Shown piece by piece: positions 9,940 to 14,085 of a DNA stretch of 64,000 nt. The DNA is taken from NCBI RefSeq assembly GCF_013823385.1, contig NZ_PNMA01000014.1, positions 1 to 64,000 on the forward strand, written 5' to 3'. The notes under the pieces were generated by a model, which saw only the letters and a program-made list of their open reading frames with translations, had not been told where the DNA came from and searched no databases. The number at the start of each line of letters is the position of its first letter. Within the stretch, counting starts at the first letter, position 1. A program made the translations under genes and the position numbers. The stretch is from Hyphomonas sp. GTDB taxonomy: Bacteria > Pseudomonadota > Alphaproteobacteria > Caulobacterales > Hyphomonadaceae.

Positions 9940-10800
9940 ATGCAGAATTGTCCGCCAAAAGCCTTCCTGACAAAGGACCGCAAAGAGCGATGGACGAACT
10001 TCTCCGTGCTGCGGCACGGCGCTTTTGACGGCTTTTTCGTCAGCTCAAAGAATTCCGGTACGCACTGGATGCTCTACATGTTTTCGGTGGCGCTGGCCGA
10101 TACTTATGGCATTCCCCGGCCGGTCTATTTCTCGGAAAATGCCACACGGCCCTATGTCGGCTTCGCAACGGATGCGCCGGTGTATGCGCAGCTGCCCCGG
10201 TTGGGTAAAAGCCATTCCATTCCGCATCAGCTGGCCGACTGGGCCTGGGCGCGCAAGGCCATGAAGCTGCCGCCCTATGTGCTGTGCGTGCGCCATCCGA
10301 TGGGGATTCTGGCTTCCCACTATGCCAAATGGCAGGACGACATTCAGGTGAGCTGGCTGGACTATCTGCGCGGCGATCCGGCCGGCAAACAGTTCCGGTG
10401 CGACCTTTACTGGATCGCCCGGTTCTGGAACCGGTGGGGCGACATTCACGCCGCCTATCCGGGGAAGGTGAGGGTGCTGCAGTATGAGGCCACCCGCATC
10501 AATCCGCGCGCCGCGCTGGAAGCCATGGCGCAGCATTGGGGCGTGGCGCTGACGCCCGAAGCCATTCAGGCCGCGCTTCAGGCGGGCACGAAAGAGGCCA
10601 TGGCCAAGCGCATCGACCCCGAGGCGGAGCCGAATGTGTTGCAGAACCGCCGGGAGACGCTGGACGAGCTGTTCACCGGCGAGGCGATGGAGATTTATGC
10701 CGAACGGGTCAGAGACCTCGTCCGGCATGACCTTGGCTATGATCTTTTCAGCCCGCCGGTTTCAGAAGTCCGGCCGAGCGCCCTTCGGGCCCATACTTGA
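9940..10800 (+). CDS. Sulfotransferase family protein
   Basis: A 286-residue predicted PAPS-dependent sulfotransferase. The N-terminal 5'-phosphosulfate loop is read in VSSKNSGTHWMLYMF, equivalent to the family's KSGTTW. The 3'-phosphate-binding region is in LCVRHPMGILASHYAKW. The acceptor is unknown. A GTG at 9901 would give a 299-residue protein, but neither start has a strong ribosome site; the ATG at 9940 sits closer to the fold. The last 53 bp overlap the convergent GST gene, an unusual tail-to-tail arrangement. Confidence 0.75.
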   Translation: MQNCPPKAFLTKDRKERWTNFSVLRHGAFDGFFVSSKNSGTHWMLYMFSVALADTYGIPRPVYFSENATRPYVGFATDAPVYAQLPRLGKSHSIPHQLADWAWARKAMKLPPYVLCVRHPMGILASHYAKWQDDIQVSWLDYLRGDPAGKQFRCDLYWIARFWNRWGDIHAAYPGKVRVLQYEATRINPRAALEAMAQHWGVALTPEAIQAALQAGTKEAMAKRIDPEAEPNVLQNRRETLDELFTGEAMEIYAERVRDLVRHDLGYDLFSPPVSEVRPSALRAHT

Positions 10801-11440
10801 TCCACCAGGGCTCGGCAGCCGCCTCCGCTTCCAGACGCCTGAAGTCCGGATCTTCCAGCACGGCGGCAGCATAGTCGGCCGCAGCGCCGGTGAGCGGCAG
10901 GCCGAAAGTGCGGAAGCGGGTGACGACGGGCATATAGAAGGCGTCTGCGGCCGACCAGGCGCCGAACAGGAAGGGGCCAGGCTCCTGCGTATTGCCGCCA
11001 TAGGTTTCGCGCAGGGTTGACCACATCGCCTGAAGACGGGCGATGTCTGCTTCGAGGGCGGGGGTCATCTCCGGCGCAGGCGTGCGGCCGCGAATGTCCA
11101 TCGAGCAGGCGCTCCGAATGGCGGCAAAGCCGGCATGCATTTCAGAGGAGACGGCGCGGGCGATGGCGCGGCGGGCAGTGTCCTTGGGCCAGATGACACC
11201 GGGGCCAGCCAGTTCGGCGACAAATTCGGTGATCGCCAGGCTTTCCCAGATCATCAGGTCATCCCAGATCAGTAGCGGCACCTTGGCCGTCGGGCTGATC
11301 TCCTTCAGCCGGGCAGTGGTCTCGGGGAAATCCAGCGGCAGGATCTCTTCTTCAATGCCGAGCCCCGCCTTGCGCACGGCCAGGAGCGGGCGGATCGACC
11401 AGCTGGAATAGTTGAGATTGCCGGAGATGAACTTTCTCAT
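10748..11440 (-). CDS. Glutathione S-transferase family protein
   Basis: A 230-residue two-domain protein. The N-terminal thioredoxin-like half opens with NLNYSSWSIRPLLAVRKAG, contains the cis-Pro in TAKVPLLIWDD and ends with the glutathione-contacting ESLAITEF. The C-terminal half is all helical and includes the WSAADAFYMPV stretch typical of GST domain 2. It probably conjugates or reduces small electrophiles in the cytosol. The start overlaps the YciI gene stop by 4 bp, making a two-gene operon. The 3' end overlaps the convergent sulfotransferase gene. Confidence 0.87.
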   Translation of the reverse strand: MRKFISGNLNYSSWSIRPLLAVRKAGLGIEEEILPLDFPETTARLKEISPTAKVPLLIWDDLMIWESLAITEFVAELAGPGVIWPKDTARRAIARAVSSEMHAGFAAIRSACSMDIRGRTPAPEMTPALEADIARLQAMWSTLRETYGGNTQEPGPFLFGAWSAADAFYMPVVTRFRTFGLPLTGAAADYAAAVLEDPDFRRLEAEAAAEPWWIKYGPEGRSAGLLKPAG

Positions 11441-11733
11441 GCGGGCTTTCCTTCGCCGATGGCCCAGCGGGTTTCGTTGATCCGGACCACTCCGAACACG
11501 CCGGCTTTCGTGTAGGGGTCTTCCGCATGCAGGGCGCGTACCGCCTCCAGGCTGTGGGCGGTGATCAGGAAGACCGAACCGATCATCTTTCCGTCATTGC
11601 TGAGCAGCGGCCCGGCCATGCGGCACGCCTCTCCGAGGCTGGCGGCCCATTCCAGATGCGCGGGACGGGCTGCGGCGCGGCGTTCGGCCCCGTCAGTTTC
11701 ATTGTCGAGGCAGTGCAGACAGAAAAGCGGCAT
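11437..11733 (-). CDS. YciI-like protein
   Basis: A 98-residue protein of the YciI family (ferredoxin-like fold). Family features include the opening MPLFCLHCLD, the RPAHLEWAASLG helix with its conserved His, the LLSNDGKMIGSVFLI strand pair and the HAEDPYTKAGVF segment with Asp-Pro-Tyr. The start is set at 11733 because GGGAG lies about nine bases upstream; an ATG at 11742 directly abuts that site. The enzymatic role of most YciI proteins is unknown. It is co-translated with the GST. Confidence 0.85.
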   Translation of the reverse strand: MPLFCLHCLDNETDGAERRAAARPAHLEWAASLGEACRMAGPLLSNDGKMIGSVFLITAHSLEAVRALHAEDPYTKAGVFGVVRINETRWAIGEGKPA

Positions 11734-11863
11734 CGTGGGCATCTCCCTTTTGACCTGCCGCCGCTATGGCACAGGCATTGGGCGGATGTCATCGCTGTTA
11801 TCGGGCGGGGGTGGAGCGAAGTGGGGGTGAGACCAAATGTCAGCCAAATGACACGCAATGTAC

Positions 11864-11889
11864 GCTGAACAATATATTGAACGTTCAGC
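11864..11889. promoter_or_regulatory. TetR operator candidate, tetR promoter
   Basis: A palindrome GCTGAAC-N12-GTTCAGC (11864-11870 with 11883-11889) lies 21 bp before the tetR start and contains a nested TGAACGTTCA (11879-11888). A possible -10 TATATT (11873-11878) lies inside it, with ATGACA (11848-11853) as a -35 at a long 19-bp spacing. Binding by the adjacent TetR protein would block this promoter. The TGAAC-N12-GTTCA core recurs at 12598-12619. Confidence 0.65.
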
Positions 11890-11910: not shown

Positions 11911-12600
11911 ATGACTCAGATGGACGACACCCGGAAGCAGATTCTCCACGCCGCCGTGGAGCGCATCCTTCATTATGGCTACTCGAAGACAACGATGGCG
12001 GAGATTGCCAAGGACTGCAACATGTCCGCCGGCAATATCTACCGGTTCTTCGCTTCCAAGCTCGACATTGCCGAGGCCATGGCCCGCAAGTTCAATGAGG
12101 AAGCCTATGAAACCTTTGCCAGGATTGCGGACAAGAAAGTGTCTGCGGCCGACCGGATGCGCGAAATCTTCCATTACGAACTGACGCGGACCTATTCGGC
12201 CATCGCGGATGAGGCGAAGATCCTGGAAGTGGCTGAAGTGCTCGCCGATGAGCGGCCGCTCTACATGAATGAGAAGCTCGCCAAGGAGCGGACCTATCTG
12301 GTTCAGATCATGAGGGACGGCATGGAGGCGGGCGAGTTCCGCCAGATCGCCAATCCTGAAGAGGTGGCCGAGATGTGGCAGTCGGCGCTGATGAAGTTCC
12401 GCTTTCCGCAGCTGTTCTCGAAGCTGACCCTGCCCAAGCTGCAGCGTGAGATCGATGGGGTGATGGACCTGCTGCTGGCAGGCATGTCGCCTGGCGCGAC
12501 GCAGCCGGCTGTCTGGGAAGGGCTGCCGGAGGCGGTCGATCCGCACTGCGTGCCCGGCGTGGAAGTCGTCATGAAAAAGCACCTGAACGCTGACGATTGA
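11911..12600 (+). CDS. TetR/AcrR family regulator
   Basis: A 229-residue regulator. The N-terminal helix-turn-helix spans roughly residues 10-55, with TTMAEIAKDCNMSAGNIYRFF as the turn and recognition helix. The C-terminal ligand domain is all helical and ends with an extension rich in Pro/Glu. The ATG at 11911 (MTQMDD) has no strong ribosome site. Palindromes with the same TGAAC-N12-GTTCA core lie on both sides of the gene, the second overlapping its stop codon. It probably represses itself and the short unit downstream. The ligand is unknown. Confidence 0.9.
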   Translation: MTQMDDTRKQILHAAVERILHYGYSKTTMAEIAKDCNMSAGNIYRFFASKLDIAEAMARKFNEEAYETFARIADKKVSAADRMREIFHYELTRTYSAIADEAKILEVAEVLADERPLYMNEKLAKERTYLVQIMRDGMEAGEFRQIANPEEVAEMWQSALMKFRFPQLFSKLTLPKLQREIDGVMDLLLAGMSPGATQPAVWEGLPEAVDPHCVPGVEVVMKKHLNADD

Positions 12601-12648
12601 ACAAAATCCAATTTGTTCATTGATTATCCCTCAATGGGGTGCTATATG
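12598..12648 (+). promoter_or_regulatory. Second TetR operator candidate and promoter
   Basis: TGAACAAA-N6-TTTGTTCA (12598-12619) is a perfect 8-bp inverted repeat and keeps the TGAAC-N12-GTTCA spacing of the site before tetR. It begins in the tetR stop codon. Right after it lie TTGATT (12620-12625) and TATATG (12643-12648), 17 bp apart, a plausible promoter for the small gene at 12701. A hairpin (12657-12665 with 12669-12677) would lie in the leader of that transcript. Confidence 0.55.
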
Positions 12649-12700
12649 ATGTGCATGGGCGGCGATGGTCGCTGCCCGGCACCGTCAGAAAGCTACTCCC

Positions 12701-12808
12701 ATGTCCTCCCAGGAAAATCGTCAGGCCGTTCTGTCTTTCCTTGCGGCCATTCCTGCCACCGCCCTTGTCATGTGGGCGACCGTGCAGCTCGCTTATTTCG
12801 TCGGCTAA
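12701..12808 (+). CDS. Small single-pass membrane protein (35 aa)
   Basis: A 35-residue frame: a short polar start (MSSQENRQ) and one transmembrane stretch (about residues 10-34) that ends with Val-Gly. It sits in an otherwise non-coding 357-bp gap between tetR and tsaD. Support is positional: a TetR-type palindrome and promoter-like boxes upstream, a leader hairpin, and a strong hairpin downstream at 12908-12932. The ribosome site is weak (AGAAAG). The same transcript could instead be a regulatory RNA. No family is recognised. Confidence 0.45.
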   Translation: MSSQENRQAVLSFLAAIPATALVMWATVQLAYFVG

Positions 12809-12907
12809 GGCCGGCACGCAGACACGTATCGCTGCGGGCGTTTCCCCTGCCACCTGCAGCTTGATGCCGGGATATTCCGGGCTTCCTCCCACCCGGATAC
12901 CGGCCAG

Positions 12908-12932
12908 ACGGGCGCCTCCTGCAGGCGCCCGT
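12908..12932. terminator. Terminator hairpin between small ORF and tsaD
   Basis: A 10-bp perfect stem (12908-12917 with 12923-12932) with a CCTGC loop lies between the 35-aa frame and the convergent tsaD end at 12958. It lacks a clear T run on either strand, so it may act with Rho or as a bidirectional stop. Confidence 0.6.
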
Positions 12933-12957
12933 ACTCATTTGAGGAAGGGGCGTGTGT

Positions 12958-14046
12958 TCAGGCCTTGGCGCCGCGCCGGCCCGCGCCGAAGACCGGGTCT
13001 GCCTTGGCCGAGGCTTCGTCCAGCGGCCAGCGCGGACGCGCGCCCGAGGCGAGGCCCTCTTGCGTGGACTGGCCGGCGGCCAGATGCTCGGCGCCAGCCA
13101 GCGCGATCATCGCGGCGTTATCGGTGCAATGGCGCAGGGGCGGGGCGATGAGGCGCGCGCCGCTGGCTTCGGCGGCCGCCTCAAGCGCGGCGCGGATGGC
13201 CTTGTTGGAAGCGACGCCCCCGGCCACGACGAAACGCTTTTCATCCGTGCCCGCATCAAACCCTGCCAACGCGCGGCGGGCCCTTTCAGACAGCACATCG
13301 CAGATTGCGGCCTGGAAGCTGGCGCAGATGTCTGCCTTCTCGCGATCGCTGCGGGCGCTTTCGGCGGCGCGGGCGACGGCAGTTTTGAGGCCCGCAAAGC
13401 TCATCTCAAGCCCGGGGCGATTGAGCAGCGGGCGGGGGAATTGATGCGCCTTCGGATCACCTGAGGCGGCCAGCCGTTCAACTGCCGGGCCGCCGGGAAA
13501 GCCGAGGCCGAGGAGCTTTGCCACCTTGTCGAAGGCTTCGCCCACGGCGTCGTCGATGGTGGAGCCGAGGCGGCGATAATTCCCCAGGCCGCGCACTTCC
13601 AGAAACTGGCAATGTCCGCCGGAGACGAGCAGCAGAAGGTAAGGGAACGGGCAGTCCGTACCCAGACGGGGGGAAAGGGCGTGGCCCTCCAGATGGTTGA
13701 CCGGGATGAAGGGCTTTCCCGCGGCCTGGGCAATCGCCTTGCCGGTCATCAGCCCGACGAGCACGCCGCCGATGAGGCCGGGGCCCGCCGTGGCGGCGAC
13801 CCCGTCAAGATCGCCGTAGGTGAGGCCCGCCGCATGCATGGCGGCGGCGACGGTGAGGTCAGCCAGCTCAGCATGGGCGCGGGCGGCAATCTCCGGCACG
13901 ACGCCCAGATAGGGCGCGTGTTCGGCAAGCTGCGTGCGGATCACATCCGACAGAAGCGTCGCGCGGCCATCCTCATAGCGCAGCACGGCGGCGGCCGTCT
14001 CGTCGCAGCTGGTCTCTATGCCGAGGATCGTCAGGGGCTGGGTCAT
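12958..14046 (-). CDS. tsaD: tRNA N6-adenosine threonylcarbamoyltransferase
   Basis: A 362-residue member of the Kae1/TsaD ASKHA family, which transfers the threonylcarbamoyl group to A37 of ANN-decoding tRNAs with TsaB and TsaE. Seen are the N-terminal GIETSCDET loop, the metal-binding NHLEGH motif, the SGGHCQF phosphate loop and the C-terminal CTDNAAMIA motif. The start at 14046 gives [11 protein letters not shown]; an ATG three codons upstream is an alternative. The yceI gene lies 39 bp upstream on the same strand. Confidence 0.95.
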
Positions 14047-14085
14047 CGCCCGCATATAGCGGGGCAGGGGGCCGGATAGAAGCGG

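Follow-up and report, generated by a model that had tools for sequence, protein, structure and literature searches.

What does the 357-nt gap between a tetR gene and a convergent tsaD gene encode, and what controls it? In the 64,000-nucleotide Hyphomonas stretch analysed here (the window), tetR (11911..12600, + strand) encodes a TetR-family regulator of 229 aa, and tsaD lies at 12958-14055 on the - strand. GST and YCII genes (10748-11742, minus strand) are divergent from tetR and are retained in most of the genus loci examined. Genes as small as the one considered here are usually omitted from annotation. A sequence-only reading had proposed that the gap holds either a TetR-controlled 35-residue membrane protein or a small RNA, and the palindrome, promoter-like boxes, leader hairpin, 35-codon frame and 3' hairpin on which it was built are all present at the positions given below.

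Coding evidence and RNA structure in the gap

The 35-codon frame at 12701..12808 on the + strand (MSSQENRQAVLSFLAAIPATALVMWATVQLAYFVG) is very probably a gene, judging from its conservation in relatives. A first plain tblastn-type search returned 39/61 relatives at E<=1, chance matches included. A profile of the small protein matched 40/42 genus genomes, and both genomes without a match were also without tetR. In the inspected genus loci, the frame sits between tetR and tsaD. Frame-breaking changes, which would favour an RNA, were looked for and none was found; the frame was intact in 34/34 aligned syntenic genus loci, with a TTG start in one. In the comparison of synonymous and non-synonymous change that the sequence-only reading had suggested, with pS partly saturated, pN/pS was lowest in clade C (0.14, 3 sequences) and the window's clade (0.16, 5 sequences), followed by clade D (0.33, 21 sequences), and the signal of selection was weak in clade B (0.55, 5 sequences). 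Four positions (S, Q, A and P) were invariant in a 25-sequence alignment of the small protein.

The gene product is a predicted single-span membrane protein. Its AlphaFold model is a single helix covering residues 3-34 (pLDDT 94.5), and over 19 residues its hydropathy reaches a maximum of 1.97. An upstream in-frame ATG at 12665 (47 aa) was rejected as the start, as it is absent from three relatives (L003-L005) that begin at the equivalent of 12701. Non-syntenic weak matches to the 35-mer (L024, L025, L026, L037, L039 and L040) were set aside as chance; they had no TetR match and fell within other reading frames or antisense to them, except for L026, whose neighbours are unrelated genes. In four loci (L006, L011, L012 and L013), the conserved small ORF is separated from tetR by a second, different small membrane-type ORF (about 38 aa; for example, MKTPFFNSRLEQVLTYTTAFSIAIYTLAMGYALTPFAL).

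The 5' leader of the expected transcript contains a 9-bp hairpin (12657..12677, + strand) within a structure of -24 kcal/mol (z -2.55, 3/200 shuffles as good), and this hairpin covaries across relatives. Of 39 operator-bearing genus leaders, 35 are distinct; across these, the nine pairs are maintained in 83.8% of cells compared to 72.1% in shuffles, with 40 double-changed cells versus 14.3. The covariation score was 0.438, as against 0.247 when shuffled and at most 0.254 when slid. In a named-structure count, for which the structure came from the window's own fold, three of five measures exceeded the shuffles (0 of 500 each) and two failed to do so (149 of 500 and 219 of 500). RNAalifold alone predicted just the outer five pairs (energy -3.27, covariation term -0.4).

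A GC-rich hairpin at 12908..12932 (z -2.80, 2/200 shuffles as good) lies between the convergent small gene and tsaD. No T run follows it in the window, and a terminator scan returned none. In L003 and L005 the equivalent hairpin continues into TTTTTTT, forming an intrinsic terminator, and hairpins with T-rich tails are present in clades B and C; the T run appears to have been lost in the window. The 21 loci of clade D leave no room for the hairpin (10-27 nt up to the tsaD stop) and do not have it, so it falls outside the conserved core.

The covarying leader and the 3' hairpin of the unit would both suit an untranslated small RNA in which the 35-codon frame is accidental. Against this, the frame is unbroken in the 34 aligned genus loci with a pN/pS of 0.14-0.55 by clade, the length and hydrophobicity of the ORF recur behind the operator in 121/127 loci (see below), clade D lacks the 3' hairpin and an Rfam search of the whole window matched no family. 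We consider this explanation very improbable. A small RNA as the sole product is unsupported, though the leader hairpin is conserved as RNA, and our preferred reading remains a translated gene.

The regulator, its operators and the promoter

The protein encoded by tetR matches the TetR_N helix-turn-helix domain (PF00440, 47.6 bits, cut-off 24) and PF17935 (34.6 bits, cut-off 26.1), and its AlphaFold model has a pLDDT of 87.1. The TetR of the closest named contig, from Hyphomonas polymorpha PS728, is 92% identical. The closest folds to the model included KstR2 and FadR (acyl-CoA-binding) and, at similar scores, the drug-binding QacR, so the ligand class could also be drug-like. Identity to the listed fold matches is about 16-23%, and the protein scores 38.8 bits against the NCBIfam equivalog for FadR of the Bacillus type, below the cut-off of 200.

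Two palindromes with identical arms and spacing (TGAAC-N12-GTTCA) flank tetR. Operator 1 (11866..11887) precedes the gene, contains a TTGAAC -35-like box and is a putative autoregulation site; a palindromic operator at the regulator's own promoter, as expected of the family, is thus present as far as the sequence alone can tell. Operator 2 (12598..12619, 22 bp) overlaps the tetR stop codon. The 64-kb window has no further TGAAY-N12-RTTCA site, and the 4.18-Mb genome has no further site of the form with A/T-flanked arms (control pattern, 0); the exact TGAAC-N12-GTTCA arms occur 7 times in the genome. When the 150 nt ahead of tetR were scanned for the best site in each of 140 loci, 129/140 had <=1 arm mismatch (mismatches to TGAAY/RTTCA: 0 in 67, 1 in 62, 2 in 8 and >=3 in 3). 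As a control, 3/68 locus-end pieces contained a perfect-arm site, and all three were the tetR operators of L006, L012 and L013.

Direct reading of the sequence places promoter-like boxes immediately behind operator 2 (12620..12648, + strand), with TTGATT at 12620-12625, 17 nt, and TATATG at 12643-12648. The layout is common to most relatives, in which the operator abuts the -35 box: TTGATT or a close variant directly follows RTTCA and is followed after ~17 nt by TATAT. A generic sigma-70 scan found 0 promoters versus 0.2 expected from shuffles; it misses TTGATT-17-TATATG because it demands T as the last -10 base. The transcript would start near 12655, just 5' of the leader hairpin. Because operator 2 ends directly at the -35 box, a repressor bound there would touch the box.

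TetR control, the headline claim of the earlier proposal, is something we infer from sequence only, namely from the common operator and its overlap with the promoter. The protein half of that proposal is supported by the conserved frame, which is under purifying selection in the window's clade, the conserved operator and promoter and the single-helix model. Predicted coding and control are both well supported by sequence, and we regard it as very likely that the gap contains a gene which this TetR controls and which is translated into a membrane microprotein.

The same operator probably serves further genes. In 29/29 genus loci with a placeable start (42 loci found, 30 fetched, 29 starts placed), an acyl-CoA dehydrogenase gene is preceded at 125-176 nt by a perfect-arm site, compared to 8 of 5800 shuffles. 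Among other genera, 22/30 genomes searched have the dehydrogenase gene, and of 21 loci with placed starts 13 carry a perfect operator, 2 have one mismatch and 6 have none. The dehydrogenase-site operator is shared with a divergent UrcA-like gene in several genus genomes, and the window's genome has a separate UrcA-family gene (54.4 bits, cut-off 25) with an operator site. The UrcA-family site was present with 0 mismatches in 4/12 loci examined and missing in 8/12, making UrcA a patchy putative target only. As the motif is shared and this TetR is the only close copy in the window's genome, the same protein would be expected to bind the dehydrogenase and UrcA sites. Three other candidate sites of a wider regulon in the window's genome (C27, C31 and C54) have GC-rich cores and were treated as chance. 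Elsewhere, an operator-like site precedes a flavodoxin-like oxidoreductase frame (named by eye) in L111, with resembling sites on the pattern list in G018, G026, G036 and G099; another precedes a 331-aa frame in L124 (G014) and one lies at a related place in L137 (G033).

Recurrence of the unit beyond the genus

Outside the genus, the small-protein profile had matches in 26 genomes (E<=0.05), some of them weak, and 20/20 of the matches that were fetched have a TetR gene just upstream. Within the family, tetR was found in 97/105 genomes. One of the 8 genomes without it (G127) has a contig-edge piece with the small ORF (L088), and the other seven are also without a small-protein match. When the profile was searched across the order, no match from outside the family was convincing, the best of them (E 0.0019) falling within a 545-aa frame, and the order-wide comparison was therefore made via TetR. 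This regulator was present in 140/299 order genomes, all within three of the families.

We read 141 tetR loci, 138 from the genome search together with L279, L287 and L288. A downstream operator, defined by <=1 arm mismatch and >=280 nt behind it, was found in 127 of them (126 related alphaproteobacterial loci and one from Nitrospira). An ATG ORF of 26-50 aa with a hydropathy peak >=1.8 lay within 320 nt of this operator in 121/127 loci, compared to 51 of 5080 dinucleotide shuffles (1.0%), these and the other locus counts being non-independent because the loci come from related species. Among the six without a scored ORF, L012 and L229 start with TTG and GTG, respectively, L308 and L319 have the ORF just beyond 320 nt, L288 carries an MMPL gene, and in L318 the operator is present and no ORF was found. 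The 14 tetR loci outside the count include L220, L231 and L238 (contig edges), L070 and L324 (two-mismatch operator and a small ORF), L237 and L298 (too short after the operator, ORF visible) and L287 (MMPL gene). They also include L222, L303, L307, L310 and L327, which are without a downstream operator in the usual place and without a small ORF, as is L300, where an operator occurs only 1272 nt on.

Between families, the small proteins are unlike each other by simple comparison, and their homology is not demonstrable by sequence. Several seem to end in an A-x-R type motif in a by-eye reading of the alignment. Selection was weaker in g15 (pN/pS 0.57), g22 (0.71) and the Parvularculaceae-type f5 (0.64). 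In family f3, the value was 0.89 for the first ORF and 0.53 for the second, with 0.32 in genus g3. Loci of this family (L289-L299, L322-L326) mostly have two tandem small membrane-type ORFs, 100-350 nt apart, with the operator before the first only. In Marinicaulis and Parvularcula (L279, L284), the neighbourhood of the tetR-small gene unit is gpsA ... Rrf2-tsaD, as checked with Pfam in L279, and its closeness to tsaD may therefore be old. In several families of one order, regulator, operator and gene stay together even though the small protein has diverged too far to be recognised by its sequence. Architecture therefore finds what sequence search cannot.

That a single TetR is accompanied throughout the order by a single small membrane-type ORF of drifting sequence would also be expected if the small protein were a feedback partner that binds a membrane sensor or TetR itself and reports membrane state, as MgrB does to PhoQ. 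MgrB is a precedent, described as a 47-aa membrane protein that inhibits the kinase of its own regulon (PMC8404706). However, no sensor gene common to all neighbourhoods was found, and adjacency to tsaD is lost in most other genera. We judge such a role to be quite unlikely, and favour a microprotein that acts in the membrane as the output of the TetR switch.

Two distant loci show what else can stand behind this type of regulator. In L287 (Desulfobulbaceae) and L288 (Nitrospira), TetR proteins 29-31% identical to that of the window have the same upstream operator arms, and an MMPL permease and a LolA-like gene lie directly behind tetR (L287:2983-6582 and L288:2980-6608). In L288, a second operator is located 75 nt before the MMPL start.

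Proposed mechanism and comparison with known systems

Repression, ligand class, membrane location and function are all matters that we infer, and the following sequence of events would account for the locus. The TetR repressor would bind the 22-bp operator before its own gene and the second operator that ends at the next -35 box, keeping both its own gene and the small gene low. A ligand, most likely lipid-like such as an acyl-CoA, would loosen the repressor. RNA polymerase would then make a short mRNA starting just ahead of the stable leader hairpin, and its translation would give a 35-residue protein with one helix through the inner membrane. There, the microprotein would act, probably by modulating either a membrane complex or the state of the lipids. 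The lipid-like ligand and membrane response are suggested by the MMPL and LolA-like neighbours of the distant regulators, the KstR2, FadR and QacR folds and the operator before the dehydrogenase gene. Taken as a whole, a TetR autorepressor, probably lipid-sensing, that releases a single-span membrane microprotein is the best reading, and one that we hold with moderate confidence; a lipid-linked function of the microprotein itself is put forward tentatively. More doubtful is a broader evolutionary extension, namely an order-wide switch in which a single-copy TetR has a fast-drifting microprotein as its constant target, and in which the microprotein may have replaced the MMPL lipid exporter as the answer to the same lipid-like signal.

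Searches of known families gave the window's 35-mer no Pfam or NCBIfam match at cut-off, CydX, KdpF, AcrZ, TisB and others included. Among 25 relatives, Pfam returned weak matches to YbgE in 2 (best E 0.018), DUF7525 in 2 and T3SS_needle_E in 1, and among 8 more distant small ORFs one match to MscS_TM (14.6 bits vs 28). A PDB sequence search with the small protein found no meaningful match (best E 6).

The size, the single helix, the promoter under a dedicated repressor and the stable leader hairpin would likewise fit a TisB/DinQ-like stress peptide active in the membrane, which depolarises or slows the cell once derepressed, with the leader as a second translation lock. DinQ is described as a single transmembrane peptide that is toxic and regulated by the SOS response (PMC3567139). 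Yet the small gene is retained at one site in 40/42 genus genomes and has no Pfam match to a toxin family, and we see this role as unlikely. As for an antisense RNA, a consensus scan of both strands from 12000 to 13500 returned no promoter-like site; the same scan also misses the proposed promoter. The repressor-released membrane microprotein remains our preferred reading.

Several regulatory systems resemble the one proposed here in part. FarR of Staphylococcus aureus is also a TetR-family regulator, linked to antimicrobial fatty acid resistance (PMC10019231). FarR/FarE, which we liken by description alone, involves RND-type efflux, unlike the microprotein of this locus (PMC10019231). The TetR-MMPL-LolA-like operons of L287 and L288 are alike in their TetR, upstream operator arms and a target directly behind tetR, whereas that target is a large exporter with a LolA-like protein instead of a protein of 35-45 residues. 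The TetR-family acyl-CoA sensors (FadR of Bacillus and Thermus, KstR2) share the TetR fold, the helix-turn-helix and a mostly alignable ligand domain, and the acyl-CoA dehydrogenase gene with the same operator adds to the likeness; the low identity and a microprotein gene as core target set the present system apart.

With two operators, one repressor, one microprotein and one metabolic co-target, the locus offers a handle on TetR-controlled membrane microproteins in bacteria that are growable and open to gene deletion in the laboratory. A search of the open-access literature, with most subscription journals outside its reach, found no paper on the tetR-small gene pair. TisB, DinQ, MgrB, CydX and AcrZ are regulated single-span small membrane proteins, and they are alike in size, in having one membrane helix and, for some, in control by a transcription factor. 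The protein described here differs from them in matching no Pfam or NCBIfam family and in having its own dedicated TetR next door. Regulated membrane microproteins are already known; within the reach of these searches, what is new is a dedicated TetR that has such a gene as its constant neighbour throughout an order.
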